Origin: Paenibacillus sp. E222
GTDB taxonomy: Bacteria > Bacillota > Bacilli > Paenibacillales > Paenibacillaceae
Direction: 5' to 3'
Assembly: GCF_013401555.1 (NCBI RefSeq)
Contig: NZ_CP058552.1
Span: 1,426,001-1,490,000 of the forward strand
Length of the DNA: 64,000 nucleotides
Made by a program: the position numbers and the translations under genes. Shown here piece after piece: positions 34,791-55,778 of the stretch. Under the pieces are notes generated by a model that did no database searches, had not been told where the DNA came from, and saw only the letters and a list, made by a program, of their open reading frames with translations. Position 1 is the first letter of the stretch; each line of letters opens with the position of its first letter.

Positions 34791-34808
34791 AATTACAACG
34801 TTGTAATT
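34791..34808. promoter_or_regulatory. LacI-type operator O1
   Basis: AATTACAACGTTGTAATT is a perfect 18-bp palindrome with the central CG typical of LacI-family sites. The likely binder is the LacI regulator encoded at 38492 in the same operon. Confidence 0.7.
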
Positions 34809-34943
34809 TTGGTTTTGTGTTTATATCTACGTATTCAATTGTTTGTTATTTGTTGTAATATTCTATTTTGAAAGGGGTTTTATGGATTATTTGTTTAAGG
34901 GAATGATCTGAATTGTGCATGAAGTGGTATGTTTATTCCCAAA

Positions 34944-34961
34944 AATTCAAACGTTGTAATT
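34944..34961. promoter_or_regulatory. LacI-type operator O2
   Basis: AATTCAAACGTTGTAATT matches O1 except at two positions in the left arm. It lies 25 bp before the first permease gene; the centres of the two sites are 153 bp apart. Confidence 0.65.
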
Positions 34962-34985
34962 TTAATGCGAAGGGGAGTCTAAAAG

Positions 34986-35903: not shown

Positions 35904-35932
35904 GACCATATCCCGACCCAAAGGAGACCTGT

Positions 35933-36814
35933 ATGCAAAAATCGAGAAGTGACCGGTTATTCTACGGATTTGTCTACCTGCTGACCATATTGGCGGTTGT
36001 CGTTACGCTGTACCCTTTCTTGTATGTGATCAGCGTTTCATTCAGCTCGGTTGATGCGATCGACAAACAAAAGGTTGCGTTGTGGCCGGTAGGCTTCACC
36101 TTGTCCGGGTACAAAATGGTGCTGCAATACCGGGAGTTGTGGGTGTCCTTCTATAACACCCTGTGGTACACCGTTATAGGTACACTGCTGAATATTGTAG
36201 CTACGTGCCTCGCTGCATTTCCGTTATCCAGACAGCAATTTTTCCTGCGCAGAAAGCTGAACTTTTTCATCGCCTTCACCATGTATTTCTCGGGTGGGCT
36301 CATCCCGGTCTACATGCTGATTACGTCGCTGGGGCTATATAACACCCGCTGGGTGATGGTGCTTCCTGTGCTGGTTATTACGTTTAATGTCATGATCTGC
36401 CGCTCAGCCTTTGAGGGGATTCCGAATGAAATCTTCGAGAGTGCAAGTATAGACGGGGCTAATGAACTGACGATGCTGTATCGCCTGGCGATACCCATTA
36501 TCAAGCCAACGCTTGCTGTGCTGACGTTATATTACGCCGTATTCCATTGGAACAACTTCTTCTCAGCCCTGCTATATCTGGGCAAACAGGATATGCAGCC
36601 CTTGCAAATGTTCCTGCGCAGGGTGCTGATCATGGCATCACCGGAGGTCATGCAAAAAATGGGTGGCACAATGACCACAGGCGCACTCGCGGTGTCCACC
36701 CTTCAGGTCCGGTATGTGTCGATTGTGGTCAGCATTCTGCCAATCGTTACGATCTACCCTTTTATCCAGCGGTACTTCGTCAAGGGGATCACCCTCGGAG
36801 CCGTGAAAGGATAG
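35933..36814 (+). CDS. ABC sugar transporter permease, LplC/YtcP-like
   Basis: A 293-residue partner permease with six helices (LTILAVVVTLYPFLYVISVS near the N-terminus). The EAA loop is FESASIDGANELTMLYRLA (about residues 168-186), followed by IPIIKPTLAVLTLYY. AAAGGAGACC is 6 nt before the ATG. It is 29 bp after the first permease and 55 bp before the solute-binding protein. It is the second half of the importer heterodimer. Confidence 0.9.
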   Translation: MQKSRSDRLFYGFVYLLTILAVVVTLYPFLYVISVSFSSVDAIDKQKVALWPVGFTLSGYKMVLQYRELWVSFYNTLWYTVIGTLLNIVATCLAAFPLSRQQFFLRRKLNFFIAFTMYFSGGLIPVYMLITSLGLYNTRWVMVLPVLVITFNVMICRSAFEGIPNEIFESASIDGANELTMLYRLAIPIIKPTLAVLTLYYAVFHWNNFFSALLYLGKQDMQPLQMFLRRVLIMASPEVMQKMGGTMTTGALAVSTLQVRYVSIVVSILPIVTIYPFIQRYFVKGITLGAVKG

Positions 36815-36869
36815 CCTTATTGATCACCATGCACCACCCAAGGTTGTTCATAACAAGGAGGAATAACGG

Positions 36870-38465
36870 ATGATAATCAGAGGGGCCGGAAGAAAAAGTG
36901 TTCTCGCGGTGATACTTGCCATCAGTCTTGCAGGATGCAGCAGCAGTACAGGAGCAGGGGGAGATAAGGGCAGTGCTTCACCAAGCTCGGAGCCAGCGTT
37001 CAACTACACCGGAGCAGGTCCGGTAACGGACCAGAAAGATGCCAAGCTGTCGATTCTCGGGACCAACGCCTGGACGACCAACGTGGATCTCTCTACTGCC
37101 GAGATTGTGAAAAAAATTGAGAGCAATGCCGGGGTAACGGTCGATTGGGATCTCATTCCCCCACAGAACTACGCGGATGCGGTGAATCCAAGGCTTGCGG
37201 CCGGAACAGGATTGCCTGATATCGTCTATCTGCCGGATCAGGATCAGCTCATGAAATACATTAACAGTGGTCTGTTTATTCCGCTGAATGACCTGGTGGA
37301 GAAGTATGGTGTGAATCTCAAAAAAATATACGACAAATCCCCATCCGTCAAAGCCAGTTTAACGACGCCAGATGGTAAAATGTATTATGTTCCGCAGCAA
37401 ACGCTTACGAAAAACTACATGCCGGTGTTCATGGTGAATGAACGCTGGTTGAAGAAGCTGGGACTGAATGAACCTACAACACTGGATGAGTTCACAGCGA
37501 TGCTGCGCAAATTCAAGACAGACGACCCGAACGGTAATGGCAAAGCGGATGAAATACCGTTGTCCATGGAATCCAAGTTTGTGCCGATGGCATTTGGTCC
37601 TGCTTTTGGCCTTGATCTGTCCAATCAGTTCTATGCGGATGACCAGGGTAAGGTGCATTTCAGCTATTATGAGCCTGCCTACAAGGAATATCTGACATAT
37701 CTGAATGGGCTGTACAAAGAAGGACTGCTCGGGGTGGACTATGCCAGTACCACAAGTGATCAGGTGACCTCCCGCATCTCGCAGGATGTAACCGGAGCTA
37801 CGTTTAATTTTAGCTGGTACATGTCGATGGTCTACAGTCCGCTGTTCAAGGATTATGACCCGGCGGAGCCTATCTTCAAGGGCATTCTGCCACTGAAAGG
37901 CCCGCATGGAGATCAGTTTTATATCGGACGTACGCCTGTGAGCGGCATTTTTGGAATCTCCAAGGACAGCAAAAATCCGGAGCTCGCCTTCCGTTTTCTG
38001 GATTATGCAGTAAGTGAAGAAGCGCAGACGTATTATACGTGGGGCATCAAGGGTGATACGTATACCGAAGAAAATGGCGTGAAGACATTCACGGACAAAG
38101 GCAAGGACAATGACTATATCCAGAAACTCGGCATTGGTCCCGTGAATCTGCCGAACATTCAGTCTACGGATTCGGCCGATTCCGTTGTGGCCGAATGGCA
38201 TGCCAAGCTCGACAAGGAATTGGAGCCATACATCCACGAGCCGTTTCCATTCGTATATGCTCTGCCGGATGAAGCGAGTGTAGAGAGTATGTCCATGCCG
38301 GATATTACGACGTATGTGGAAGAGATGAACTTCAAATTTATAAGCGGTGATACCAGTCTGGATCAGTTTGACAGTTATATCGAGACTTTGAAAAAAATGA
38401 ACATTGAGCAGGTTATTGCCGGCAGACAGGCGCAATATGACCGGTATAAGGCTGCACAGCAATAA
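36870..38465 (+). CDS. Extracellular solute-binding lipoprotein for oligosaccharides
   Basis: A 531-residue lipoprotein. Signal and lipobox are SVLAVILAISLAGCSSS (Cys at about residue 23) followed by a Gly/Ser-rich linker. The body is a family 1/LplA-type binding protein: PDIVYLPDQDQLMKYINSGL, FIPLNDLVEKYGVNLKKIY, a calcium-loop-like DDPNGNGKADEIPL and FGISKDSKNPELAFRFLDYA. It would capture pectin-derived oligogalacturonides or rhamnogalacturonan fragments, inferred from the GH105 and pectinesterase genes downstream. AAGGAGG precedes the ATG. Confidence 0.9.
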   Translation: MIIRGAGRKSVLAVILAISLAGCSSSTGAGGDKGSASPSSEPAFNYTGAGPVTDQKDAKLSILGTNAWTTNVDLSTAEIVKKIESNAGVTVDWDLIPPQNYADAVNPRLAAGTGLPDIVYLPDQDQLMKYINSGLFIPLNDLVEKYGVNLKKIYDKSPSVKASLTTPDGKMYYVPQQTLTKNYMPVFMVNERWLKKLGLNEPTTLDEFTAMLRKFKTDDPNGNGKADEIPLSMESKFVPMAFGPAFGLDLSNQFYADDQGKVHFSYYEPAYKEYLTYLNGLYKEGLLGVDYASTTSDQVTSRISQDVTGATFNFSWYMSMVYSPLFKDYDPAEPIFKGILPLKGPHGDQFYIGRTPVSGIFGISKDSKNPELAFRFLDYAVSEEAQTYYTWGIKGDTYTEENGVKTFTDKGKDNDYIQKLGIGPVNLPNIQSTDSADSVVAEWHAKLDKELEPYIHEPFPFVYALPDEASVESMSMPDITTYVEEMNFKFISGDTSLDQFDSYIETLKKMNIEQVIAGRQAQYDRYKAAQQ

Positions 38466-38491
38466 GCTTCCCAAGGGTTGAGAGGTGTTGA

Positions 38492-39481
38492 TTGATTTTG
38501 ATAACCATTAAGGACATTGCCAAACTGGCGGGAGTGAGCTACAGCACGGTATCCAAGGCACTCAACGGTGATCCCCGCATCAAACCGGCGACGCGGCAGA
38601 AGGTGCTCGCGGTTGCGGAGAAGCATCAATATCGAAAAAACATTATGGCACAGCAGCTTTCCACCGGCAGAAGCAACATTATTGGCTTTGTTCTTGATGA
38701 ACTGAGCAATCCGTTGTTCTCGAATATATCGGGCAATCTGCATGCGGAGCTGAAGAAGCGGGGATACCAGATGATTTTGGTCGTCGCGGATGATGGGCTG
38801 GATGTTTTTAGCCAGCTTCGCGTGGATGGATGTATCCTATGGGATTATGCGCTGGATAATCGGGATGCCTTCTGGAAAAAGTTTGCAACACTAAACATGC
38901 CATGTTTCGTGCTTGGTACAGATGAAGCCCCGAATTCCCCTTACATCAAGATTGACCGGAAAGAGGGCATATACAAAGCGGTTGAACATCTGAAATCACT
39001 GGGACATCACCAAATTGGTTTCATTGGAAACTCTCAAAATATCAAGCTTGAAGGGTATCGGGAAGCGTTGCAGCGCACAGGACTTGAATTTGATCACCGC
39101 CATGTGCTGCCTGCACATTCCTCCTGGGAGGACGGATATTTTGCCATTCGGCAGTACACGTTTGAATCGGATTCGCCAACGGCGTTTATTGGCTTGAATA
39201 ACCTGGTGACCCGAGGTGCGCTGCGGGCTTTGCTGGAAGCGGGCTACAGTGTGCCCAATGATATTTCGTTAATCGGTTATGATGATCTGCCGGATATGCA
39301 GTATGCCGAGGTGGCGCTAACCACCATTGGCCCGCCCCTGGATGAACTGGCCGCACAGGCAGCAGAGCTGATCGTATCTTTGATCCGTGATGAGCAGGTG
39401 GATTATCCGGTCATTATCCAACCGAAGCTGAATCACCGCAATTCGACGGCGATTTGTCGGCAGCAAGTGTCTGAACATTAA
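38492..39481 (+). CDS. LacI family transcriptional regulator of the pectin operon
   Basis: A 329-residue protein. The N-terminal LacI HTH is TIKDIAKLAGVSYSTVSKAL (residues about 5-24) with the hinge helix NIMAQQLSTGRSNIIGFV. A periplasmic-binding-protein-like effector domain follows (NPLFSNISGNLHAELKKRGY, FIGLNNLVTRGALRALLEAG, LIGYDDLPDMQYAEVALTTI). The start is TTG 38492 (or TTG 38498) behind GAGAGGTG. It most likely binds the CAACGTTG palindromes at 34791 and 34944 and is released by a sugar. It lies inside the operon it would control. Confidence 0.92.
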   Translation: MILITIKDIAKLAGVSYSTVSKALNGDPRIKPATRQKVLAVAEKHQYRKNIMAQQLSTGRSNIIGFVLDELSNPLFSNISGNLHAELKKRGYQMILVVADDGLDVFSQLRVDGCILWDYALDNRDAFWKKFATLNMPCFVLGTDEAPNSPYIKIDRKEGIYKAVEHLKSLGHHQIGFIGNSQNIKLEGYREALQRTGLEFDHRHVLPAHSSWEDGYFAIRQYTFESDSPTAFIGLNNLVTRGALRALLEAGYSVPNDISLIGYDDLPDMQYAEVALTTIGPPLDELAAQAAELIVSLIRDEQVDYPVIIQPKLNHRNSTAICRQQVSEH

Positions 39482-39525
39482 GGATAGGCTAAGTACAACA
39501 TTCAAGGTCCAGGGAGGGTTCTTTT

Positions 39526-40638
39526 ATGCAAGTACAGACGCAGTTATCTTGGTCGGAGCGAATAGCGGAGATGATTTGCCAGCAATGCGATGGTGATGGC
39601 TATCATGTGTTTCCTTCGGAACGGTGGGCATATGTTCAGGGAATGACGTTAATGGCAATGGCACGCACTGGTAAGCAATACGGCAAGGACGAGTATGTTT
39701 CTTTTATGAAAAGACATATGGATCTGTATGTCCAGGAGGATGGTTCCATCGGAACGTATTCCCTGGAAGAGTACAACCTGGATCAGATCAATCAGGGCAA
39801 GAACCTGTTCGAACTGCTGGAAACTACCGGGGATCAGCGATATGCTGAAGCTGCACATCTGCTCGCAGCCCAGCTCGCAGGACAGCCTCGAACGTCGGAG
39901 GGCGGATTCTGGCACAAAAAAATCTATCCGTTCCAGATGTGGCTGGATGGATTGTATATGTCGTCGCCTTTTCTGGCGCAATATGCCAAGATGTTTGATC
40001 GGCCAGATCTGTGGGATGAAGTGGCTCATCAGATTTTGCTAATCGAACGCAAGACGCGTGACCCGCGCACGGGTCTGCTCTATCATGGCTGGGATGAATC
40101 GAAGGAGCAGATATGGGCCGACTCCGTAACCGGATGCTCCGCACACTTCTGGAGCCGCGCGATGGGCTGGTATGCGATGGCGATCGTGGATAGTCTGGAG
40201 CACTTCCCGATCCATCATCCGAAACGGGGCACAATCATTGGCATCTTCGAGCGTATGTGTCATGCCTTGGTACGTGTACAGGAGCAGGAGAGCGGACTCT
40301 GGTTCCAGGTGCTGGATCAGGGATTCCGCAAGGGCAATTATCTGGAAGCTTCCGGTTCAAGCATGTTTGTGTACGCCATGGCGAAGGGAGTCCGCCTGCG
40401 TTACCTAGAGCCTCATTTCAGGCAGGCTGCAGATAAGGGATGGCAGGGACTGACCTCCCGATTGATGGAGGAAACGGAGAAAGGCGTGAAGCTGAACGCG
40501 ATCTGTCACGGAGCAGGACTCAGTCTGGATCGGGATGGTTCGTACAGTTATTATGTCGGCGAGCAGATTGTGAGTGACTCGTTCATGGGTGTGGCACCGC
40601 TCCTGCTGGCTGCGCTGGAAATGGAGCGATTGCCATGA
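39526..40638 (+). CDS. GH105 unsaturated rhamnogalacturonyl/galacturonyl hydrolase (YteR/YesR-like)
   Basis: A 370-residue cytoplasmic enzyme without signal peptide. Family features of the (alpha/alpha)6 barrel are FQMWLDGLYMSSPFLAQYA (catalytic Asp, about residues 141-160), YHGWDESKEQIWAD, FWSRAMGWYAMAIVDSLEHF, and EASGSSMFVYAMAKGVR. GH105 removes the unsaturated uronic residue left on oligosaccharides by pectate or rhamnogalacturonan lyases, by hydration of the double bond. AGGGAGG precedes the ATG. Its stop overlaps the pectinesterase start by 4 bp. It acts after import by the ABC transporter encoded upstream. Confidence 0.92.
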   Translation: MQVQTQLSWSERIAEMICQQCDGDGYHVFPSERWAYVQGMTLMAMARTGKQYGKDEYVSFMKRHMDLYVQEDGSIGTYSLEEYNLDQINQGKNLFELLETTGDQRYAEAAHLLAAQLAGQPRTSEGGFWHKKIYPFQMWLDGLYMSSPFLAQYAKMFDRPDLWDEVAHQILLIERKTRDPRTGLLYHGWDESKEQIWADSVTGCSAHFWSRAMGWYAMAIVDSLEHFPIHHPKRGTIIGIFERMCHALVRVQEQESGLWFQVLDQGFRKGNYLEASGSSMFVYAMAKGVRLRYLEPHFRQAADKGWQGLTSRLMEETEKGVKLNAICHGAGLSLDRDGSYSYYVGEQIVSDSFMGVAPLLLAALEMERLP

Positions 40639-43656: not shown

Positions 43657-45756
43657 ATGATACATTTAAATAAACACACTGCTTTTAAGAAGACTGCAAA
43701 GTTTTTCCTTGGTCTGTCCCTGCTCTTATCCGTCATCGTTCCTTCCTTCGCGCTCCAACCTGCTACGGCCGAAGCAGCAGATTCTTATAAAATTGTTGGT
43801 TACTATCCGTCCTGGGCTGCGTACGGCAGAAACTATAATGTAGCTGATATCGATCCGACCAAAGTGACGCATATCAACTATGCTTTTGCTGATATTTGCT
43901 GGAACGGCATTCATGGAAATCCGGACCCTTCGGGCCCCAATCCTGTAACCTGGACCTGTCAGAATGAAAAAAGCCAAACGATCAATGTACCGAACGGAAC
44001 GATTGTGCTCGGCGATCCATGGATCGATACGGGCAAGACATTTGCAGGGGATACGTGGGATCAGCCCATTGCAGGTAATATCAATCAGCTTAACAAGCTG
44101 AAACAAACCAATCCAAACCTGAAGACCATCATCTCCGTCGGAGGATGGACGTGGTCCAACCGTTTCTCTGATGTAGCCGCCACTGCTGCAACCCGAGAGG
44201 TCTTTGCGAATTCCGCCGTCGATTTCCTGCGGAAGTACAATTTTGACGGGGTAGATCTGGATTGGGAGTACCCGGTCTCAGGCGGACTTGACGGTAACAG
44301 CAAACGTCCTGAAGATAAGCAAAACTACACCCTTCTCTTGAGCAAAATCCGTGAAAAGCTGGATGCAGCAGGAGCTGTGGACGGCAAGAAGTATTTGCTT
44401 ACGATTGCAAGCGGTGCGTCTGCGACCTATGCTGCCAATACGGAGCTTGCAAAAATTGCTGCCATCGTCGACTGGATTAACATTATGACATACGATTTTA
44501 ACGGGGCTTGGCAAAAGATCAGCGCACATAATGCGCCATTGAACTATGATCCTGCGGCTTCCGCCGCTGGCGTGCCAGATGCCAATACATTTAATGTGGC
44601 AGCCGGGGCACAAGGGCATCTGGATGCAGGTGTACCGGCCGCTAAACTCGTGCTTGGTGTTCCATTCTACGGTCGTGGCTGGGATGGATGCGCACAAGCA
44701 GGCAACGGACAGTATCAGACGTGCACGGGTGGTTCTTCCGTTGGAACATGGGAAGCAGGCTCTTTTGATTTCTACGATCTGGAAGCCAATTACATCAACA
44801 AAAACGGGTATACGCGTTACTGGAATGACACAGCCAAAGTGCCATATCTCTATAATGCGTCCAACAAGCGCTTTATCAGCTATGACGATGCAGAGTCCGT
44901 TGGATATAAAACGGCTTATATCAAGAGCAAAGGACTCGGCGGAGCGATGTTCTGGGAGATCAGCGGTGACCGTAACAAAACACTCCAAAACAAACTGAAA
45001 GCAGATCTGCCTACCGGAGGTACAGTGCCACCAGTAGATACGACGGCACCAAGCGTACCCGGAAATGCCCGTTCGACAGGCGTGACGGCGAATTCGGTGA
45101 CGCTGGCCTGGAATGCTTCAACGGATAATGTAGGCGTTACCGGGTATAACGTCTATAATGGCGCTAATCTTGCGACATCGGTCACCGGAACAACAGCAAC
45201 GATCAGTGGACTTACAGCGGGGACTTCATATACTTTCACGGTAAAAGCAAAAGATGCAGCAGGCAATCTGTCTGCGGCCAGTAATGCTGTAACTGTAAGC
45301 ACAACGGCTCAGCCGGGAGGTGATACGCAAGCGCCAACTGCTCCGACGAACCTTGCGTCGACGGCGCAAACCACATCCAGCATAACGCTGAGCTGGACAG
45401 CATCCACTGACAATGTGGGTGTAACGGGTTATGACGTGTACAACGGAACGACACTGGCAACAACGGTAACCGGAACGACGGCAACGATCAGCGGGCTTGC
45501 GGCGGATACCTCGTATACATTTACGGTAAAAGCAAAGGATGCGGCAGGCAATGTGTCTGCAGCGAGCAACGCGTTAAGCGTGAAGACGGCCGCTGAAACG
45601 ACGAATCCTGGCGTATCGGCTTGGCAGGCCAACACAGCTTATACTGCGGGACAACTGGTCACATATAACGGCAAGACGTATAAATGCTTGCAGCCACACA
45701 CCTCCTTGCCAGGGTGGGAACCATCCAACGTGCCCGCATTGTGGCAGCTGCAATAG
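43657..45756 (+). CDS. Secreted GH18 chitinase with two FN3 and C-terminal CBM5/12
   Basis: A 699-residue protein. Signal peptide about residues 1-41 ([20 protein letters not shown]). The GH18 domain (about 45-450) carries [13 protein letters not shown] and the catalytic [15 protein letters not shown], plus an alpha/beta insertion as in ChiA1-type enzymes and a final [15 protein letters not shown]. Two FN3 modules (about 460-545 and 550-640) are near-copies of each other and of the FN3 in the upstream chitinase ([24 protein letters not shown]). The C-terminal CBM5/12 is [20 protein letters not shown] to [13 protein letters not shown]. The start codon abuts the previous stop; GAGGAGG lies about 11 nt upstream. 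It is processive or endo-acting on chitin. Confidence 0.94.
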
Positions 45757-45804
45757 TTAAAAATTTAATTGCAATATTTTTAATTGAAGCGCGCAGTAGA
45801 CAAG

Positions 45805-45838
45805 AAAAACCACCGATCTTTGATCCGGTGGTTTTTTG
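45805..45838. terminator. Terminator of the chitinase operon
   Basis: AAAAACCACCG and GATC-type inner arms pair with GATCCGGTGGTTTTTT (one bulge), with A and T runs on both sides. Confidence 0.85.
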
Positions 45839-45864
45839 TTCATATGAACGAAACTCTCGCCGTG

Positions 45865-46400
45865 GTTAGCATTCTGCAAAAGGTAGGCTGAGGCCAACAG
45901 GCCAACACTGGGGATTTTTAGTCCATTGGTTGTAGTAGATCATATAGGCTTTACCTTCTTGTTTGGCTTCATCCAGTTTTGGCTCAGTTCTTTAACGAGA
46001 TTTCATCCTTAAAATGACCAAAGAACGACTCCTGCGGTGCGTTATCCCAGCAGTTCCCTAGTCTGGACATCGATTGACCAAGCCCCATACGTTTCACTGT
46101 CTTCTGAAAATCTGGATGAGTGTAGTGAGTTCCTTGTCTCCTTGCTCCTGGTAACCTGCTCTCCATCGGTCGGCTGCGACTTTAATCCGGGTCATGTCGA
46201 TGATCTGAACATCGAATCCACAGACTCAAAATTTCTCTGGGCAGCTTTCCTTGTTGATTTGATGCAATAAATAGTTGTTTGAATTCGTCCGTATATGCGA
46301 TTCCCTTGGTCGATACAGATTTCACATAGAGGTTTACAGAAAGTTGCTCTACTTCGCTTAATCCTAATCCTTTGCTCATTCTGAGCAATCTCCTATTCAA
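45865..46400 (-). pseudogene. IS3-family transposase remnant
   Basis: Read on the minus strand, the first part (46182-46400) has an OrfA-like HTH region (MSKGLGLSEVEQLSVNLYVK and YTDEFKQLFIASNQQGKLP). A frameshift follows, then a fragment VQIIDMTRIKVAADRWRAG. This is joined directly to the C-terminal DDE integrase end (HYTHPDFQKTVKRMG, QSMSRLGNCWDNAPQESFFG with the catalytic Glu) and, in yet another frame, LDEAKQEGKAYMIYYNQW. The central catalytic part is missing and several frameshifts are present, so it is inactive. It lies between the chitinase operon and the lanthipeptide cluster. Confidence 0.85.
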
Positions 46401-46701
46401 AGAATTTTACGTGATTGTTTTAGTTTCTTTAGGCTCAGTCTTTTAATTAGCTTGATGAGGTTAAAAAATTCGAAGTGTATATCTCCTAAATTTCGATATA
46501 AATGTATATGAATTTCCGAATAAACTCATTATATCGCATTATTCTTAAATATATCTATTAAACCTATTTACTTCCATATACCCATGTGGTAATATTACCC
46601 ATATAAGGATTTAGACCTTAAACGTCAATAGGAACACTATTATCATATTGAACAATGAATACCCTGCTAAGCAGGTTGAGTTATGAAAGGAGGTGAAAAC
46701 T
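46401..46701 (+). promoter_or_regulatory. AT-rich promoter region of the lanthipeptide cluster
   Basis: About 300 bp without a gene. GGTAATATTACC at 46588-46599 is a perfect palindrome flanked by direct CCCAT repeats (46581 and 46598). A weak promoter candidate is TTAAAC (46618-46623), 17 bp, TATCAT (46641-46646). CCTGC/GCAGG at 46663-46675 forms a small hairpin just before the AAAGGAGGTG ribosome site. No regulator gene lies in the cluster. Confidence 0.4.
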
Positions 46702-46893
46702 ATGAAATTGAAAAATCAAATGGAAAATACTAATGCAGCTACATATAATCCAGTGGGAAGTGTGCTATCTGAATTGACAGACACTGAGATGGATACAGTG
46801 GCTGGTGGTGCTCAAGCACAAGGCTTTACAGATGGTAATTGTGTTTCTACCATTACGGCTGATTGTACTCCAGGATGGACATGGGTATGTTAA
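46702..46893 (+). CDS. Class II lanthipeptide precursor (LanA), 63 aa
   Basis: ATG 46702 follows the excellent site AAAGGAGGTG. The leader MKLKNQMENTNAATYNP... ends in ELTDTEMDTVAGG, a double-glycine cleavage site for C39-type LanT peptidases. The core of 27 residues begins AQAQGFTDGN and ends CVSTITADCTPGWTWVC. It has three Cys and seven Ser/Thr. TITADC fits the [T/S]-x-[T/S]-x-[E/D]-C ring of lacticin 481, nukacin, mersacidin and salivaricin A (TITDDC), which binds lipid II. An extra Cys at core position 11 with Thr at 7 suggests an additional N-terminal ring. Next to lanM and lanT, it is the substrate of the cluster. I do not recognise the mature peptide. Confidence 0.93.
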   Translation: MKLKNQMENTNAATYNPVGSVLSELTDTEMDTVAGGAQAQGFTDGNCVSTITADCTPGWTWVC

Positions 46894-46998
46894 TAAACAG
46901 CTGAATTCAGAGGTTAGTGCAATCTTTGGGAATAATAGGCTAGTTGATACACGGTAGTAACAGAATGATAATGCAGTTAGGTTTGACATGGATTCTAT

Positions 46999-47073
46999 AA
47001 GGAGGGCATTCTGCTGATATTATCGGAGCATTATAAATGATGCTGCCGAGTATACAGCTAGAAATGCCCTCTT
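46999..47073 (+). other. Long hairpin between lanA and lanM that sequesters a Shine-Dalgarno sequence
   Basis: AGGAGGGCATT on the 5' side (46999-47010) pairs with AATGCCCTCTT (47063-47073), with inner pairs such as CGGAGCAT/ATGCTGCCG. The AAGGAGGG ribosome-site sequence is inside the stem and has no start codon at normal distance. The lanM ATG is at 47086 behind only a weak TAGGT. It may act as partial terminator, RNA stabiliser or translational control between precursor and synthetase. Confidence 0.6.
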
Positions 47074-47085
47074 ATCCTTGTAGGT

Positions 47086-50000
47086 ATGGTTTCTAAATTA
47101 TCGAAAGGTTGTTATTATACGGTGATAAATACTAGTGAAAAGATAAAATATTGGGCAAAATTTTTCTATGATAAGGAAGAATATTTGGAAAAGAGTCTCA
47201 AAGAAGTGTCGAATCTCGAAGTTGAGACTATTGTAAATTCAAAAAGAATAGACTCATCATGGGAACTGCAGTGGGAAAAGTTGTTGTTGAGTGACTCATT
47301 GGAAGACTATCTTCCTGCTACTCCGCCTGCATTTTGGGGATTTGCTGAACGTTTTTTCTTACTTGCTATCAATAAATTGGGAGAAAATATAAAAATAAGT
47401 GATTCAGATTCTCTTATTTTACATACAAGTAGTTCTTTTTTTAAAAGGCTGCTTCCTTCATTATTCGAAAGAATCATGGATTGCAGTTACAAAACTTTAA
47501 TATTGGAATTGAATGTATTAAGTAATCAGGGACTTCTACAAGGAGAAACTCCAGAAAAGAGGTACCAGTACTTTGAAAATTTGCTACATGATCGAGAGTA
47601 TTTAAGACAACTAGCCAATGAATACCCAGTACTAATACGTTCATTGCTTCGTATAACTGAAAGATGGGCAGCCCATGTTAGTGAAGTATTAGATAGGTTT
47701 AAGGCGGATTATTCGAAAATTGTTTCACATATGCCTGAGGTGAACCAGTTCGGAAAGCTTGTCCAGCTGCATATTGGGGTAGGCGATACTCATGATGGAC
47801 GAAGTGTGACGATTTTAGAGTTTACAACGGGACGCAAATTAGTATATAAACCTCGTTCACTAAGGGTTGATATAGGATATTATCGAATTTTGTCGTGGAT
47901 GCGACAGTTTGGTGTTCCACACATGAAAATGATAGAAAATATAGATTGTGGAAGTTACGGCTGGACAGAGTTTGTAGAGCATTCTGAGTGCAAATCCATT
48001 GAGGAAATTAGTGAATTTTACAAAAACATGGGCGTGAACCTGGCTATTATGTACATGTTTAACGCCACAGACTTCCATTATGAGAATATTATTGCGCATA
48101 GATCTAGCCCTGTTGTAATTGATCTAGAATCCTTATTTCATAGACATATAAGTACGAAGAAATTTGAACATGATGCCAATGGTCATGCCTATGAAATTAT
48201 ATCTAATTCTGTGATGTCTTCTGGTATGTTACCACAGTACATTTTTAAGTCAGATACGTACTCAGGTGTAGATATTAGTGGTATTTTCGGATACGGTGGA
48301 AAAAAAGTACCGAATGTACTGAACCTCACTCACAGAGGGACGGATCGAATGAGGCTAGAAAGAGGAATGGGGGAATCCGGAAAGACCCGCAATCTTCCAG
48401 TTTATAATAATGAAGTTGTAGATAGTTATCGTTATACTAGCGACATTGAACAAGGTTTTGCTCAGGCTTACAGGATTATGATGGGAAATAAGCACAAACT
48501 GAAAGAAATGATCCGAGATTTTGATGGCGTTAGAGTTAGAGTAATCGTGCGAAATACTAGAGCGTATGGGGAACTAATGCGTACCCTATACCATCCTGAC
48601 TTATTGCGAGACGAATTAGATCGTAAAGTTGTTTTGCATCGATTATGGTTACAATGCTTAGCTGATCCCAAACATTTAAAATTTGTTTCCCACGAGATGC
48701 GCGATATTGAAGACGGTGATATCCCTATCTTTTACACTTCTCCGTCTGAAAGAGATGCTTGGTCATCTAATAGTGAACGAATTCCCCAGTTATTTGAACA
48801 ATCAGGTATAGAGGTTGTAATAAACAAAATCGATAAAATGGGCGAGAAGGACCTAAAAGAACAGTTACAGTTATTAAATATGTCTGTTTTGGCATCTAAG
48901 CCTGATCTTTATACTTATTGTTTTCCTGAAATTCAATTAAAAAATTCAAACGATGTGCTAAGGTCTAATTGGAAAGACGAGTATGTCCAATTAGCTACTT
49001 CAATTGGAGAAAGTTTGGTTCAATCGGCAGTTATATCTTCAAATCCAGCAGCTGATGATATAACATGGATTGGTTTAGTAGCCCATGGTGAGGATGAAAG
49101 AAAACTGAGACTAATTCCAGTAGGAAATGATCTTTATAATGGGAATGGTGGAATTGCCCTGTTTTTGGGTTATTTATCTGAACTAACTGCAAATAACAAT
49201 TATAAATATATGGCCCGAAAAGCATTACAGCCGTTGATAGAAATTATGAGGAATACGTACCGATCAAATGCTGTATCGTTAAACATTGGGGTATTTGAAG
49301 TTGGTAGCATTGGCGGTGGCGTATTTGCTACCTATCAATTGTCACGCTTATGGAATGATGAAGAGCTACTCCAAACGGTTAAAGAATTCCTTCCTTATTA
49401 CTGTAACCTTATTGATGAAGATAACTCATTCGATTATATCGGTGGAGCAGCTGGAGCTATTGATGTACTTTTACATGTATATCATGGAACCGGATGGATA
49501 CAGGCACTGCAAGGAGCAGAGAAATGTGCAGAACATTTGCTTCAGAATGCTCAAACATTGCCAGATGGTAGTATGGTTTGGTTGACGACACCGAATAGTA
49601 AGCCTTACGTAGGCTATTCTCATGGCGTATCTGGAATTATTGCATCATTATCATCGTTGTACAGAGTAACTCAACATAAAAAGTACATTGAATATATCGA
49701 AAAAGGACTACAGTATGAGCGTACAAACTATTGTGCTGAATTGAAAAATTGGATTACTCCTAATGATACCGCAAGGGTAACATGGTGTCATGGTGCACCA
49801 GGTATATTGTTATCTCGACTACGATTGTTGGAAAATGGGTATTGGGATGCACATATTGATCAAGAGATTAGTATTGCGCTTGAAACAACTCTTAAATTAG
49901 GCTTTGGGACAGAACCTGTTTATTGTCACGGAGATTTTGGACAATTGGAAATATTACTTTATGCTAATTCAGTTCTGGATCGTAATGAGGATACTATCGA

Positions 50001-50202
50001 TGTAGTCAGAGCGTATCTGCTCAGACTTCTAAATGACCAGCCATGGAATAACACAGGTGTTCACCGTGCATTTGATATTAAAGGATTAATGGGTGGTCTT
50101 TCGGGTATTGGATTTGGGCTATTAAAACAGGCATTTCCGGAAAGAGTTCCTAACATTTTAAATCTGGAAAATGATAAATTTTTCTCTTCCATTTCTGGGT
50201 AA
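47086..50202 (+). CDS. lanM: Class II lanthipeptide synthetase LanM
   Basis: A 1038-residue bifunctional enzyme that dehydrates Ser/Thr and cyclises them with Cys. The N-terminal DUF4135 dehydratase has kinase-like residues: Lys in VYKPRSLRVD (about 254), NATDFHYENIIAH (Asp/His/Asn, about 325-337) and VIDLESLFHRH. The C-terminal LanC-like cyclase (about 690-1030) has YSHGVSGI (about 843), WCHGAPGIL (zinc Cys, about 903) and YCHGDFGQLE (zinc Cys-His, about 946), so the Cys-Cys-His zinc set is complete. Length is typical. Base composition is strongly AT-rich compared with flanking operons. It belongs with lanA 190 bp upstream and lanT 38 bp downstream. Confidence 0.96.
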   Translation: MVSKLSKGCYYTVINTSEKIKYWAKFFYDKEEYLEKSLKEVSNLEVETIVNSKRIDSSWELQWEKLLLSDSLEDYLPATPPAFWGFAERFFLLAINKLGENIKISDSDSLILHTSSSFFKRLLPSLFERIMDCSYKTLILELNVLSNQGLLQGETPEKRYQYFENLLHDREYLRQLANEYPVLIRSLLRITERWAAHVSEVLDRFKADYSKIVSHMPEVNQFGKLVQLHIGVGDTHDGRSVTILEFTTGRKLVYKPRSLRVDIGYYRILSWMRQFGVPHMKMIENIDCGSYGWTEFVEHSECKSIEEISEFYKNMGVNLAIMYMFNATDFHYENIIAHRSSPVVIDLESLFHRHISTKKFEHDANGHAYEIISNSVMSSGMLPQYIFKSDTYSGVDISGIFGYGGKKVPNVLNLTHRGTDRMRLERGMGESGKTRNLPVYNNEVVDSYRYTSDIEQGFAQAYRIMMGNKHKLKEMIRDFDGVRVRVIVRNTRAYGELMRTLYHPDLLRDELDRKVVLHRLWLQCLADPKHLKFVSHEMRDIEDGDIPIFYTSPSERDAWSSNSERIPQLFEQSGIEVVINKIDKMGEKDLKEQLQLLNMSVLASKPDLYTYCFPEIQLKNSNDVLRSNWKDEYVQLATSIGESLVQSAVISSNPAADDITWIGLVAHGEDERKLRLIPVGNDLYNGNGGIALFLGYLSELTANNNYKYMARKALQPLIEIMRNTYRSNAVSLNIGVFEVGSIGGGVFATYQLSRLWNDEELLQTVKEFLPYYCNLIDEDNSFDYIGGAAGAIDVLLHVYHGTGWIQALQGAEKCAEHLLQNAQTLPDGSMVWLTTPNSKPYVGYSHGVSGIIASLSSLYRVTQHKKYIEYIEKGLQYERTNYCAELKNWITPNDTARVTWCHGAPGILLSRLRLLENGYWDAHIDQEISIALETTLKLGFGTEPVYCHGDFGQLEILLYANSVLDRNEDTIDVVRAYLLRLLNDQPWNNTGVHRAFDIKGLMGGLSGIGFGLLKQAFPERVPNILNLENDKFFSSISG

Positions 50203-50240
50203 ATGGCGATCTTAAATCAAGTCCGAAGGGAGAGAGTGTA

Positions 50241-52382
50241 ATGGCTCGTCGGCGTGTACCCTATGTCGAGCAGATGCATCAGTCAGAGTGTGGACTTTGT
50301 TGCCTTGCAATGATATCCGCATACCATAAAAAGGAAGTTTCATTATCTCGACTACGTGAACGGGCAGACGTTGGACGGGATGGTACAACGTTGTTGCAAC
50401 TAAAGAAAATTGCTGTGAGCATAGGCTTTGATGTTAAAGCTTATCGCATTGAACATATGGATCAATTTCATTTAAAGCAAGTTTCTTTACCAGCAATTCT
50501 ACATTGGAATCAAGGGCATTTTGTAGTTCTGGAAAAGATAGATAACAATTATGCTCGTATTGTTGACCCGCGTTTTGGGAGAATTAAGCTGTCATTAAAG
50601 AATTTCAGCGAGCAATTTTCTGGATTTTTAATGACAGTGGGATTAACCGAACGAATCGACATTGAGAAAAGCCCAAATATTTGGTTAGATGTTTTAGTCC
50701 ATGTAAAAGCACATAAAAATCTGTTTGTATATGTTTTTCTTATTACACTAGCTTTGCAATTCATAGTTATAGGTATGCCGTTATTCATGAAGCATGTTAT
50801 TGATGAAGTTATGATCCCTAAAAACTCCAGTTTATCTATAACGATTTTTATATCTGTAGTCGGTTTTCTACTTGCTTACATGATAATTACATTCGTGCGC
50901 AGTCGTGTTTTGGTTCGATTACACAATGCTTTGGACTATGAGATGCAGACACGCTTTTTTTCACATTTATTGAAGTTACCTTTTCCGTTCTTCTTACTGC
51001 GTTCTTATGGGGACATGCTTTTTCGAATGAATAGTTTGGTCACAATTCGAAATCAGCTGTCAGGCGCTCTGATTACAGGTATATTGGATAGCTTCATGTT
51101 ATTTGTATTGTCTGGTTATATGTTGTTCATATCTCCATTGCTTGCGATGATTGTATTTTTGCTTGTGAGCATAAATATTTTGTTAGTAATTTTCACTAAA
51201 CAATACGTAGCCGAGATTAATCAGCAACAAGTGGTGGCTACGACAGAAGTACAAGCAGTGCAGACAGAGATGCTGTACGGTATTATGGGTGTGAAAATAT
51301 CGGGGACAGAACAACAAGTATATTCCCAATGGCTTAATAAATTCAAACATTTATTGCAAGTATACCGCCGTAAGGAAAATTTGAATAGCTACATTACAAC
51401 AACTAGCAATGGATTGCAATTTATGTCACCACTCATTGTGCTAAGTATCGGCGTTATGTTAATTACAGGGGAATACAGTTCTATGACTGTTGGTATGGTA
51501 GTCTCATTTCAAGCGATTGCGACTCTTCTTTTTACTACATCATCAAGCCTCATGAATACGATAAATTCATATATTCTTACGACTACTATTTTGAAACGAA
51601 TTCATGACGTGTTGGAAGCTCCACCTGAGCAGAATGAAGGTAAACTGCAATTAAAAGTACTAGGTGACATCAGACTATCACATGTTAGTTATTCCTATTC
51701 AAAGTATAGTCCGATCGTTATAAATGACATTTCATTACACATCAAATTAGGACAGAAGATAGCCATTATTGGACAATCCGGCTCTGGAAAATCAACTTTA
51801 GCTCATTTGATCATTGGGTTATTTGCCCCGTTATCCGGTGAGGTATACTATGATGGTTATGGAACATCGGATTTGGACATGCAATACGTACGTAAACAGA
51901 TGGGTATAGTGCCGCAGGATATATCATTATTCAATCGTAGTGTGTTTGATAATATTGCCATGCATCAGGATGGTGTAACTATGGATGAGGTAGTTCGGGC
52001 AGCAAAAGCAGCAAATATCCACGATGAAATAATGTCGATGCCTATGCAATATCAGACCGTTCTAGCTGAAATGGGTAGAAATATTTCAGGAGGACAAAGA
52101 CAAAGAATTGCTTTAGCCAAAGCAATTTTAAATAACCCATCTGTACTTGTATTAGATGAAGCAACGAGCGCATTGGATCATATAACTGAGGCTCGAGTAG
52201 ATGCATATTTATCAAGTATTAAATGCACACGAATTGTGATTGCCCATCGGTTATCGACGGTTATGAACAGTGACATGATTATTGTCTTGGAGAATGGAAG
52301 GGTTTGTGATGTAGGAAATCACAATCAGTTGTTACATACTTCAGACTATTATCAATATTATTATAAAGAAATGAGTTCATAA
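50241..52382 (+). CDS. lanT: Lanthipeptide-processing ABC exporter LanT with C39 peptidase
   Basis: A 713-residue half-transporter. The N-terminal C39 peptidase has the catalytic Cys in QSECGLCCLAMIS (about 17), His in QGHFVVLEKI (about 93) and Asp in IVDPRFGRIKL (about 109). Six membrane helices (about 165-440) follow, then the ATPase: Walker A GQSGSGKSTLAHL (about 510), signature ISGGQRQRIALAKA (about 616), Walker B SVLVLDEATSALD (about 637). It cuts the leader after GG and exports the peptide. AAGGGAGAG precedes the ATG. All catalytic residues are present. Confidence 0.96.
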   Translation: MARRRVPYVEQMHQSECGLCCLAMISAYHKKEVSLSRLRERADVGRDGTTLLQLKKIAVSIGFDVKAYRIEHMDQFHLKQVSLPAILHWNQGHFVVLEKIDNNYARIVDPRFGRIKLSLKNFSEQFSGFLMTVGLTERIDIEKSPNIWLDVLVHVKAHKNLFVYVFLITLALQFIVIGMPLFMKHVIDEVMIPKNSSLSITIFISVVGFLLAYMIITFVRSRVLVRLHNALDYEMQTRFFSHLLKLPFPFFLLRSYGDMLFRMNSLVTIRNQLSGALITGILDSFMLFVLSGYMLFISPLLAMIVFLLVSINILLVIFTKQYVAEINQQQVVATTEVQAVQTEMLYGIMGVKISGTEQQVYSQWLNKFKHLLQVYRRKENLNSYITTTSNGLQFMSPLIVLSIGVMLITGEYSSMTVGMVVSFQAIATLLFTTSSSLMNTINSYILTTTILKRIHDVLEAPPEQNEGKLQLKVLGDIRLSHVSYSYSKYSPIVINDISLHIKLGQKIAIIGQSGSGKSTLAHLIIGLFAPLSGEVYYDGYGTSDLDMQYVRKQMGIVPQDISLFNRSVFDNIAMHQDGVTMDEVVRAAKAANIHDEIMSMPMQYQTVLAEMGRNISGGQRQRIALAKAILNNPSVLVLDEATSALDHITEARVDAYLSSIKCTRIVIAHRLSTVMNSDMIIVLENGRVCDVGNHNQLLHTSDYYQYYYKEMSS

Positions 52383-52393
52383 CTGGTTTTTAT

Positions 52394-52615
52394 ATGACGG
52401 CTTTTCAATCAAGTAGATTTGAGGATCTCATGGACTTATTCTCCTGTGTGAATGTAGTTGTTTGTGACTTTATTCTACACGGATTAGACCATGGGCTCTT
52501 TTATTTTTTTAGAAAAGATGCTGTAACGGATATTGCAATCTGTAATATACAGGATGTTCTTGTTGAATTAAACAAAATTAGGCTGCACAGATACATTGAG
52601 GAGGGAGACATTTGA
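52394..52615 (+). CDS. Unknown 73-aa protein inside the lanthipeptide operon
   Basis: The frame MTAFQSSRFEDLMDLFSC... lies 11 bp after lanT and overlaps the lanF start by 4 bp, so it is translated in the operon. It has two or three Cys (SCVNVVVCDF; AICNIQ), a moderately hydrophobic centre (CDFILHGLDHGLFYFF) and an acidic C-terminus (HRYIEEGDI). No signal peptide or clear TM helix is visible. ATG 52430 with GAGGA is an alternative start (61 aa). I do not recognise it. Position between exporter and self-protection genes makes an immunity or accessory protein possible; that is inference. Confidence 0.65.
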   Translation: MTAFQSSRFEDLMDLFSCVNVVVCDFILHGLDHGLFYFFRKDAVTDIAICNIQDVLVELNKIRLHRYIEEGDI

Positions 52616-53568
52616 AAACCATATTATCGGTAAAGCACCTAACGAAAGAAATTAAGGGCAAGTTGATTGTGCAAGACATATCGTTTGATGTGGCAGCAGG
52701 GGAGATTATCGGACTACTTGGTGCCAATGGAGCGGGCAAGACAACCACGATGAAGATGATGGTTGGTCTAAGCAAAGTAAGTGCCGGGGACGTTCATATT
52801 GCAGGTTATAGTATTAAGACTAATTTCTCTAAAGCCCTCCCTAATGTCGGAGCAGTGATTGAAGCCCCTGCATTCTATCCATATTTAAGCGGATATGAAA
52901 ATCTACGCCAATATCAGCGGTTGCACAGAAATGCAAGTAAAGATTGGCTGTTAGAGGTGGCTGGCCTAGTCGGGATAGAATATGCGCTTAAGCAGCGAGT
53001 AGGCACGTACTCCATGGGAATGAAGCAAAGACTCGGTATAGCACAAGCACTACTCCGTAAACCAAAGTTGCTAGTTTTGGATGAGCCAATGAACGCACTC
53101 GATCCTGCTGGTGTGCGGGAAACACGAAACTACTTAAATCGAATTGCTGCCGACTTGGGCGTAGCAATTGTAATCTCCAGCCATCAACTATCAGAGATCG
53201 AGCAGATGGCGCGCAGAGTGATCATTATACAGCATGGTCGTTTAGTGACAGAACAGCAAATTGGTAATGGTATTAATGATGACACCTTCTGTATTACTCT
53301 TCATATTGATAACATTGAGCGATCAAGAGAAGTTATGGCCAACTTATATAGGCATGAAAAAAATACATTGGAATATAAGCATATGGATAAATTATCCAAT
53401 GGTCTATATTCTATTACAATAGCTATTGATGAAGGTCAAGTTCCAAAGCTCATCCGAACATTATGTGATGCTGATGTGAACGTTCATCGGGTGTTTCCGG
53501 CACATACCAGTTTAGAGGATAAGTTTTTAGAATGGACAACTGTGCAAGGTGGGGGTGAGTTAAGTTGA
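52612..53568 (+). CDS. lanF: Lantibiotic self-protection ABC transporter ATPase, LanF-type
   Basis: A 318-residue ATPase starting at TTG 52612 (GAGGAGGGAG upstream). Walker A GLLGANGAGKTTTMKMMVGL (about residue 36), signature YSMGMKQRLGIAQAL (about 140), Walker B LLVLDEPMNALDP (about 158) and SSHQLSEIEQMA. The DrrA/BcrA-like C-terminal extension is normal. LanFEG transporters remove the lantibiotic from the producer membrane. It overlaps both neighbours by 4 bp (TTGA/ATGA type), so coupling is tight. Confidence 0.92.
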   Translation: MKTILSVKHLTKEIKGKLIVQDISFDVAAGEIIGLLGANGAGKTTTMKMMVGLSKVSAGDVHIAGYSIKTNFSKALPNVGAVIEAPAFYPYLSGYENLRQYQRLHRNASKDWLLEVAGLVGIEYALKQRVGTYSMGMKQRLGIAQALLRKPKLLVLDEPMNALDPAGVRETRNYLNRIAADLGVAIVISSHQLSEIEQMARRVIIIQHGRLVTEQQIGNGINDDTFCITLHIDNIERSREVMANLYRHEKNTLEYKHMDKLSNGLYSITIAIDEGQVPKLIRTLCDADVNVHRVFPAHTSLEDKFLEWTTVQGGGELS

Positions 53569-54305
53569 TATGGAATGAATGTTTGAAGATAGTGAATAAA
53601 AAAGTCTTTATTTTTTCACACCTTGGTTTTATTGTGATGACGTTACTGTTGTCTTCGTCGTACATCAGTGGTCTTGAGGCTGATGTTACAGTGGCTCAAA
53701 TGGTAGGTTCTTTGCTTAGTTTATCGGGAATGCTTGTTATTTTACCTTGGGCGATAGTTATGTCCCCTCTTATTTGGACGGATGAGTATCTTTATGGTAC
53801 TCTGAAACAGCTATTTCTGCATACTTCTTCGCGCATACGGTTGTATTTTGCCAAAATTGTTGCGATGATCTTGCTCATCAGTTCGGGTGTTTTTAGTATA
53901 TTCTTGATTTCTTTGGTATTGAATCTCTTGGCAGTTCCACAGAACATTCAATGGGGGGACATGACAGTTGTTATATACACTATCGGAGCTCTCGTATTGC
54001 AATGCTGCCTATATGCAAGCTTAGCATCTTTTATAGGCGTATGGACGAGATCAGCTGCTTTCGGGGTAGGCGGAAGCTTAGTGTTATACTTTTTTCAGTT
54101 AATATTTGGAAATAGCCTCTTATCCATATCATGGACGCACATTCTATTCATTCATCACGATGATTTAAGTGTCTACTGGAGCACATCACAACATAGATCA
54201 GAATTAGTTGGCTTACCTATATCGTTAATGATAGACATCATCTATATTATATTTTTCTTTGCAATTGGATTATGGTTCTTCGTTAAGGAGAGAGGGGCAG
54301 AATAA
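53565..54305 (+). CDS. Lantibiotic self-protection ABC permease, LanE/LanG-type
   Basis: A 246-residue ABC-2 type permease with six helices (for example FSHLGFIVMTLLLSSSYI, MLVILPWAIVMSPLIW, LWFFVKERGAE at the end). The DEYLYGTLKQLFLHTSSRI loop (about residues 73-91) is the usual cytoplasmic contact after TM2. Only one permease gene is present where many clusters have two (LanE and LanG), so it would work as a homodimer with LanF. Start TTG 53565 overlaps lanF. It is the last gene, followed by a terminator. Confidence 0.88.
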   Translation: MIWNECLKIVNKKVFIFSHLGFIVMTLLLSSSYISGLEADVTVAQMVGSLLSLSGMLVILPWAIVMSPLIWTDEYLYGTLKQLFLHTSSRIRLYFAKIVAMILLISSGVFSIFLISLVLNLLAVPQNIQWGDMTVVIYTIGALVLQCCLYASLASFIGVWTRSAAFGVGGSLVLYFFQLIFGNSLLSISWTHILFIHHDDLSVYWSTSQHRSELVGLPISLMIDIIYIIFFFAIGLWFFVKERGAE

Positions 54306-54341
54306 ATATCATTCGGAGCTTAAGGGCTGTAGGATGACTTG

Positions 54342-54385
54342 AAGCCTTGTGGCTATGATAGCCAACATGACTAGGCTTTTTTTTG
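54342..54385 (+). terminator. Terminator of the lanthipeptide operon
   Basis: AAGCCT (54342-54347) pairs with AGGCTT (54373-54378), with an inner GGCTA/TAGCC stem, followed by eight T. Confidence 0.85.
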
Positions 54386-54462
54386 TACTCTACGCTGAAA
54401 GGAACAATCATTCGGCAAAATATAGGGATCAAAATCATAAATCCACTTATTACAGACTCGTT

Positions 54463-54520
54463 AAAAAAGCAGTAGCCGTTCTAGGAACCAAGAAGTTCTA
54501 GACCTGCTACTGCTTTTTAT
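54463..54520. terminator. Second terminator, bidirectional
   Basis: AAAAAGCAGTAGC pairs with GCTACTGCTTTTT (about 54464-54476 with 54506-54518), with TTCTAG-type pairing in the loop. It may stop the bcrC-like transcript from the other side. The stretch 54520-54763 holds nothing else I can support. Confidence 0.8.
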
Positions 54521-54763
54521 TGTGCTCTCGTACCCGTCCCAGACCACTAAAGATAATATCTGCTTATTTCTCCTTAGTTGGTTCGGCCTGAATAACAAGA
54601 AGAAATACAACATAATTGACTTTGTGCTGCGCTCCTTAGTGTACGGAAATCGGTGAGTTTACTGGATTTAATTACACAGTGTACATTTTGCGCATTTTTG
54701 TTTAAGACCAGATACATAGCAATTGTTTCGACATATCGTAACAAACCTGGTACTGGCGGGAAT

Positions 54764-55357
54764 TTACATACTACCAGACTTACGTTGGACAGGTAATACG
54801 CGCTGTTCCACTTTTTCATATAAAGCCAGAAACCGCCTGATAATCCCGAGCTTTGGTGCCAACCAATAGATGAATAAAGCTGAAATGATGCCAATCAACG
54901 CTCCCACTGCGATATCTATTGGATAATGAACTCCAACCCAAACGCGGGAGACAGCACCACAGCAAGCAAGCGCCAGCCAGAGCCACCCACCCTTTCTCCG
55001 GACAAGCCAGAAGGAGACAGAGATGGAAAAAAACAAAATCGTATGATCGCTTGGAAAAGAATTATCTATATCATGGTTTAGGAGTTTGTTGACATGTGGC
55101 AATACCGCGAACGGCTGATAATGTTCATAAAACTTGCCTGCCAATTTACCGATGATCTCTGCCAGAACAAAAGCAAGCCCTGCCTGGATAACCATCATCC
55201 GATTCCGGCTGCTGCGGGTGAACCAATAAACAAGCATTGCTAACGCTAGTACATACAGCATATATTCCGCCACAAAGACAGCAGCGGGATTCAGAAAAGT
55301 AAACTGTTTGCCCAGATCGTTAATCGTCCGAAACATATCAATATCCCATTGAAACAA
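54764..55357 (-). CDS. bcrC: PAP2-family undecaprenyl-diphosphatase, BcrC-like
   Basis: A 197-residue membrane phosphatase. PAP2 motifs: KFYEHYQPFAVLP (KxxxxxxRP-like, with Gln-Pro), NSFPSDHTILFFS (PSxH, about residue 96) and SRVWVGVHYPIDIAVGALIG (SRxxxxxHxxxD, about 136). Five or six helices. It recycles undecaprenyl pyrophosphate, and in Bacillus BcrC gives bacitracin resistance. It lies between the lantibiotic operon and BceRSAB-type genes, all acting around the lipid II cycle. GGAGGTGGG lies about 11 nt before the ATG. Confidence 0.9.
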   Translation of the reverse strand: MFQWDIDMFRTINDLGKQFTFLNPAAVFVAEYMLYVLALAMLVYWFTRSSRNRMMVIQAGLAFVLAEIIGKLAGKFYEHYQPFAVLPHVNKLLNHDIDNSFPSDHTILFFSISVSFWLVRRKGGWLWLALACCGAVSRVWVGVHYPIDIAVGALIGIISALFIYWLAPKLGIIRRFLALYEKVEQRVLPVQRKSGSM

Positions 55358-55778
55358 AATCCCACCTCCACCTGAATTTCCAACTTACAATGGAGAACTC
55401 CAACCAGCCTACCTCAGTGATTATCCATTTTTTTCGAAGTAGGCTATTGTTGCCACTAGTCCTAACGGCAGCAGCATAAAGCGACACATAGGAATAGAAC
55501 GAAGGGATTGCAGGAACTCCGCAATCAAATGCACGACTGACCATGGAAAAATCGCTTTATAGTCATAGTTTGCCAATGCTATATTCCCATCTTGATCACA
55601 ACTGTAAAAATAATGGTTTGCACGCAGTTAGTTTTTTGCACATGTTTGTAATAAACATCGTCGGGGCCGACAATAGAAGCAGCTAACTTCACCCAACGTA
55701 ATGCTGATTCATGGCTGTTAGATGACGCCTCATGACGCAATCCCGAAAAACAGAAACATTAGCATTACGATAATACGT
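55358..55778. other. Intergenic region between bcrC-like and bceB-like genes
   Basis: About 420 bp with no supportable gene. It should hold the bcrC promoter. Short minus-strand frames here lack ribosome sites. Confidence 0.5.

Follow-up and report, generated by a model that had tools for sequence, protein, structure and literature searches.

Several described systems lie close to the locus analysed here. The nearest is a gene cluster of Bacillus mojavensis RO-H-1, identified in silico in 2014, which in the accessible part of that report comprises two identical precursors together with LanM, LanT, LanF and LanE (PMC3951391). Plantaricin C from Lactobacillus plantarum LL441, the namesake of the NF000539 family, binds lipid II according to the available part of its description (PMC6107846). 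Amylolysin, from Bacillus amyloliquefaciens GA1, appears in the available sections of its report as a lipid II binder with a two-gene FE immunity system (PMC3857288). In addition, the accessible text of PMC7466992 places four genes of the plantaricin C family, as that paper names them, on a Bacillus thuringiensis plasmid along with a synthetase. The available sections of PMC7268733 and PMC5100339 contain no mention of the precursor family considered here.

The present locus lies in a window of 64,000 nucleotides from Paenibacillus sp. E222 (NZ_CP058552.1, positions 1,426,001 to 1,490,000). It shares its lanA-lanM-lanT-lanF-lanE order and an RNA hairpin with the B. mojavensis cluster, whose LanM and LanT are 87% and 89% identical; that cluster differs in its two identical lanA copies, its core ending in TITADCTPWLWGC and the lack of extra DNA between lanT and lanF. 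Likeness to plantaricin C extends to a 27-aa core after a GG leader, a TxTx(E/D)C-like ring, a similar ...TWVC end and the pairing of LanM with a peptidase-bearing ABC transporter, but in the accessible account plantaricin C has a CTLTSEC motif, a start rich in Lys and four Cys, and its lanM is followed by four ABC genes (PMC6107846), and the window precursor scores only marginally in that family. Amylolysin has LanM, LanT and two-gene FE immunity in common with the locus, whereas, in the available sections, its motif is CTLTWEC, its product is larger (3318 Da) and it has the regulators amlKR (PMC3857288).

The five genes form a real class II lanthipeptide gene cluster, all on the + strand, in line with the single direction read in the earlier note. 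Gene families, gene order, purifying selection and intact relatives agree that the set serves class II lanthipeptide making, export and self-protection. The reading preferred here, at a probability of roughly 0.82, is that the cluster is a recently acquired and probably working lantibiotic set. It is a further case of an already known family, because the B. mojavensis cluster with its closely similar LanM and LanT had been catalogued before, and its kind is ordinary. The earlier note had called the product unrecognised. This stands insofar as the openly searchable full texts, which leave most subscription papers outside, yielded no characterised product of the cluster family, and insofar as a search of the same scope with the core motifs of lanA returned nothing relevant (its one chance match was a materials paper); it falls short insofar as the plantaricin C model is reached and the B. 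mojavensis cluster is already described.

Precursor peptide and predicted rings

The precursor gene lanA (46702..46893, + strand) encodes 63 aa, with a leader at residues 1-36 that ends in the double glycine recognised earlier (GG at 35-36) and the core AQAQGFTDGNCVSTITADCTPGWTWVC; its ribosome site, AAAGGAGGTG, is strong. The best NCBIfam match is the plantaricin C family NF000539, whose curated cut-off of 29.0 bits is marginally reached at 29.1 bits. Scores fall below the thresholds of the lacticin 481 family (NF040664, 17.1 against 46 bits), the mersacidin/lichenicidin family (TIGR03898, 14.4 against 23.5 bits) and the Type-A lantibiotic family (PF04604, 20.4 against a gathering score of 21.7). 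In place of the CTLTSEC of plantaricin C, which lies outside the curated definition of NF000539, the window core reads CVSTITADC, with Asp in place of Glu and CTxTxEC missing. The stretch GNCVSTITADC nevertheless matches the GxxxxTx(S/T)x(D/E)C motif of lipid II-binding lantibiotics. A single peptide with such a ring resembles the lacticin 481/nukacin group, in which nukacin also has Asp, but the window core differs from that group in its low NF040664 score and in having no TCC end.

A homology search with the precursor, suggested in the earlier note, returned 18 homologues whose source names are mostly Paenibacillus and Bacillus (the B. cereus group and B. velezensis), along with Saccharibacillus and one Stenotrophomonas record. 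Two of the 18 (P0005 and P0018) bear the plantaricin C family name in a source. Searches elsewhere gave no relative of the precursor in the PDB up to E 10, no match to it in plasmid records, and 44 pattern matches in viral contigs, none of which is a precursor relative.

Across the alignment of 19 precursors, the leader segment NPVGSVLSELTDTEM is almost invariant. In the core, D44, T52 and C63 never vary, and at least 90% of the sequences keep G41, F42, T43 and C47. The strict pattern Tx[ST]x[DE]C is present in only nine of the 19; on reading the list, the other ten comprise five Ser-first cores, three with Tyr for Cys, one TITAGC and one different core (P0018). Three Bacillus-type precursors (P0009, P0010 and P0011), in which Tyr replaces the Cys of TITADC, are perhaps decayed or otherwise ringed paralogues.

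Co-conservation suggests the rings T43-C47, T50-C55 (within TITADC) and T52-C63. This prediction draws on two informative precursors and on a familiar ring pattern: beyond T52, P0008 lacks any further Ser or Thr and P0012 has only Ser53, so T52-C63 would be the likeliest last ring, and its overlap with T50-C55 resembles the ring pattern of mersacidin and lacticin 481. The calculated [M+H]+ of the core is 2832.206 when unmodified, 2778.175 with three dehydrations and 2724.143 with six.

Relatives of the cluster

In a family-level search, seven of 394 genomes contain the precursor, the window's own included, and one of the seven (G237) is a weak case. A class-wide search matched four of 398 genomes, namely the window's own and three weak partial matches (L017-L019). 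The locus in G237 (L015) has distant lanA and lanM genes, its LanM being 34% identical, and was excluded from all comparisons other than identity and the RNA model scan. LanM matched 196 plasmid records, all below 60% identity, and a contig scan of genomes with LanM alone gave seven pattern matches, none of them a relative.

Six close loci remain: B. mojavensis RO-H-1 (L020), Paenibacillus sp. DMB20 (L021), Saccharibacillus kuerlensis (L022), Paenibacillus albidus (L023), Paenibacillus sp. JJ-100 (L024) and Paenibacillus daejeonensis (L025). Locus DNA comparisons refer to homologues in these six, with the B. cereus-group and other loci outside them. The first three carry the full A-M-T-F-E set, and window LanM is 86.9% identical to that of B. 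mojavensis and 77.3% to that of DMB20. The B. mojavensis locus holds lanA as a tandem duplicate (L020:9001-9448) and is flanked by an IS240-type transposase gene (81 bits) and, on the opposite side, by a transposase-like ORF (19.5 bits against a cut-off of 23).

The other three (L023, L024 and L025, also listed as L013, L012 and L014) contain only lanA, lanM and a C39 peptidase, with no lanF, no lanE and no exporter part of LanT. Their stand-alone peptidase consists of 135-145 codons from the start of LanT; in L024 and L025 it scores 140 bits for C39 in Pfam, and dN/dS between these two is 0.24. These loci have a different core (for example DYPHLPSLTKNCSIFTILSGCSW) and retain the leader, LanM and the hairpin. 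Near the lanA-lanM-C39 set of L025 lies an acyltransferase gene (L025:15663-16622) that scores 247.4 bits with the fabD model against a cut-off of 260.9, and a reading of the ORF lists shows PKS/NRPS-like genes near this set in two species (L025 and L013/L023).

Synthetase, exporter and immunity genes

The class II lanthipeptide synthetase gene lanM (47122..50202, + strand) encodes a protein with dehydratase and LanC-like domains (PF13575 and PF05147) and scores 977 bits with TIGR03897, for which the cut-off is 304. Its PDB matches include LicM2 (6st5, 8.4e-103) and CylM (5dzt, 3.7e-61). Alignment to LicM2 shows that the DFHxENI, IDLE, WCHG and CHG stretches are kept, in line with the intact motifs claimed before; DFHxENI/IDLE and WCHG/CHG presumably represent the dehydratase and zinc sites. 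The start of LanM is most likely the GTG at 47122, since a GTG occupies this position in all seven loci (the window and its six relatives) and the longer frame is broken in Saccharibacillus, which has two bases fewer just 5' of it. GAAAGG or GAGAGG lies about 10-12 bases 5' of the GTG in the seven loci. The ATG at 47086 was rejected as a start on the same grounds.

After a gap of 38 nt follows lanT (50241..52382, + strand), which encodes a C39 peptidase joined to an ABC exporter, with the peptidase, ABC membrane and ABC ATPase domains all present (PF03412, PF00664 and PF00005); the bacteriocin transporter 4ry2 (7.5e-98) is among its whole-length PDB matches. Together with the double-glycine leader, the C39-type LanT agrees with membership in a class II cluster. 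The immunity pair was likewise read correctly as LanF plus a single permease. The ABC ATPase gene lanF (52612..53568, + strand, TTG start) matches ABC_tran (PF00005) at 106 bits, and its best NCBIfam match is the lantibiotic-protection ATPase TIGR03740, at 200.8 against a cut-off of 309.75. The only ABC2-type permease, LanE, is encoded at 53565..54305 (+ strand) and has 246 aa, a PF12730 match of 4.8e-10 and 78% identity to its B. mojavensis counterpart. Between the window and B. mojavensis, dN/dS lies at 0.12-0.34 for four genes, which indicates purifying selection; dS against S. kuerlensis is saturated, so the ratio is given only for other pairs.

One member of the proposed set has to be dropped. 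The earlier note had counted a small protein between lanT and lanF, but the 73-codon ORF there (52394..52615, + strand) is probably not a gene, judging from its sequence comparisons. Among about 5.8 billion proteins, in a search limited to relatives that have short exact words in common with the query, its sole homologue is itself; it has no visible ribosome site, and a search for a second copy in the genome gave only chance-level pieces. It is missing from the three full relatives, in which lanT and lanF are 82 nt (B. mojavensis), 61 nt (Paenibacillus sp. DMB20) and 63 nt (S. kuerlensis) apart, against 229 nt in the window. A role as an immunity protein was rejected on this evidence, and the ORF lies in extra DNA between lanT and lanF.

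The distribution of the immunity genes also bears on what the product does. A lanthipeptide that serves signalling, or some purpose other than antibacterial action, could account for core ends that vary greatly among relatives behind an almost constant leader, and for the absence of lanFE from three of the six close relatives. However, LanF and LanE are present in all four clusters with a full LanT (the window, L020, L021 and L022), and the predicted ring motif is like that of lipid II binders, so that such a role is improbable and a lantibiotic remains the preferred reading.

A conserved hairpin in the lanA-lanM junction

The junctions between genes had been described as short or overlapping. 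This fits lanM-lanT but not lanA-lanM, where 228 nt are structured (fold z -4.66 against shuffles, for 227 nt). Within this junction, a 107-nt hairpin (46978..47084, + strand) reaches z -6.57 in the window and folds in all seven loci, with z ranging from -4.47 to -6.57. In the MAFFT alignment, pairing holds for 86.0% of 258 cells; shuffled alignments give 81.5% (0 of 500 reach the observed value), and the covariation score is 0.256 against 0.193 (again 0 of 500). Sliding the partners lowers pairing to 35.4-45.5%, a control that is at a disadvantage because the structure was derived from the same sequences. Nine of 37 pairs are doubly changed, a count equalled in 12 of 500 shuffles; because related loci have several of the changes in common, the cell count overstates the number of independent events. 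Further pair types are no more numerous than in shuffles, 336 of 500 of which reach the observed number, and RNAalifold gives a slightly unfavourable covariation term of +1.22.

An RNA model trained on the window and its six close relatives finds, in the window's genome, only its own place and a weak reverse-strand echo. Among family genomes it matches three of 295, all at lanA-lanM loci already known; these 295 are a sample under stricter filters, and G122, G157 and G217 may fall outside it. Across 14 sequence sources, the model recovers the seven training loci; its only other hits are three weak echoes of these positions on the opposite strand, and it gives no match at the distant locus L015 or in L017-L019. 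Rfam has no family at gathering score within 45500-55500.

A plain terminator, or a palindrome arisen by chance, would be the alternative without a regulatory role: hairpins after lanA are found in other operons too, and of the five measures of pairing two give weak or null results relative to shuffles (12/500 and 336/500). That explanation is nonetheless distinctly unlikely, given that the fold recurs in all seven loci, that no T run follows the stem, and that in B. mojavensis the hairpin stands after the second of the two lanA copies only. The hairpin probably caps the transcript or marks a point of processing, which would keep lanA mRNA above lanM mRNA. It is, with the swapped-core branch, one of the most interesting parts of the locus.

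Acquisition and expression of the cluster

The cluster sits in a segment of 8526 bp (45856..54381) with a GC content of 0.381, against 0.505 and 0.510 in the flanks. In a congener (G098, L039), the sequence left of 45855 is 90.5% identical over 5338 bases and that right of 54382 is 97.4% identical over 6338 bases, and the two flanks are 11 bp apart, forming an empty site; this genome has no match to the precursor. Transposase remnants (45984..46400, - strand), presumably of the IS3 type, stand at the left margin of this segment. The part at 46182-46400 scores 22.6 bits with HTH_Tnp_2 (PF20310), just below the cut-off of 23.8, the part at 45984-46166 matches no Pfam family, and a stretch 75% identical to the remnants occurs elsewhere in the genome. 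On the strength of the empty site, the low GC and these remnants, the cluster was most likely gained in the lineage of Paenibacillus sp. E222, a soil bacterium; its loss from the congener is less likely.

A second genome considered as an empty site (G132, L040) was unusable, with only a PAP2 gene in common. Elsewhere in the window, 34615-40520 is largely unlike the congener (only 39344-39784 matches, at 83%) and is perhaps another insertion or replacement. Away from the cluster, the genome also encodes a second LanC-type synthetase (G000:C1:645100-646119; L016:10020-12761, - strand), nearest to class IV LanL (558.9 bits against a cut-off of 650) and next to class III.

The final terminator proposed earlier corresponds to a terminator-like hairpin at the right edge of the insert (54341..54384, + strand), with a stem at 54341-54379 and eight T at 54377-54384. 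Its strength is moderate (-14.9 kcal/mol; z -2.28 for 53 nt and -1.48 for a 95-nt piece), and a pattern scan did not list it. Upstream of lanA, a palindrome, CCTGCTAAGCAGG, lies at 46663-46675, just 5' of the ribosome site; it also occurs in L012/L013 (CCTGCTCGGCAGG) and L020 and is missing from the aligned stretch of L010/L011.

The ORF listing confirms that neither lanR nor lanK lies inside the insert, and promoter-like sites number 28 against 30.6 expected, none above chance; both points weigh against taking expression in this host for granted. A cluster intact in sequence yet silent, its regulator left behind or its promoter damaged, would agree with these findings, with the low-GC insert and its upstream transposase remnants, and with the extra DNA at the lanT-lanF junction. 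Some relatives may also have nearby control, since DMB20 has a kinase/receiver gene about 3.3 kb 5' of lanA and a response regulator is encoded downstream in P. daejeonensis. However, none of the five reading frames is interrupted, and lanA has a strong ribosome site. Moreover, a dedicated lanRK pair is no fixed part of the family: DUF6138 genes stand between the DMB20 kinase and lanA, and neither the three upstream ORFs tested in S. kuerlensis nor the two in B. mojavensis gave a kinase or a response regulator; the one regulator among them is of the MarR type and lies 3.5 kb away in S. kuerlensis. Silence is accordingly rather unlikely, and a working cluster remains the favoured interpretation.

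Proposed biosynthesis and significance

In the proposed pathway, LanM would dehydrate Ser and Thr residues of the core and close the three thioether rings, and LanT would cleave after the double glycine at 35-36 and export the 27-aa product. Protection of the producer may come from LanF acting with LanE as a homodimer. Lipid II is the predicted target of the TITADC ring, and binding to it could block cell-wall synthesis in Gram-positive competitors. At the RNA level, the hairpin would probably cap the lanA transcript and lower lanM output, so that precursor would exceed enzyme.

Viewed across its relatives, the system might be a mobile cassette: leader, LanM and cis-acting hairpin would travel together, and the core would be exchanged. 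The family-specific hairpin would set the ratio of precursor to synthetase, and one branch would have swapped exporter-coupled leader removal for a free C39 peptidase. This broader picture is tentative, with somewhat less than an even chance of being right.

The cluster thus offers a small, complete and transferable set with a testable ring prediction and testable masses. As an RNA element open to measurement, the lanA-lanM hairpin may account for one operon yielding much precursor and little synthetase, and the relatives provide a natural set of swapped cores for one LanM lineage.
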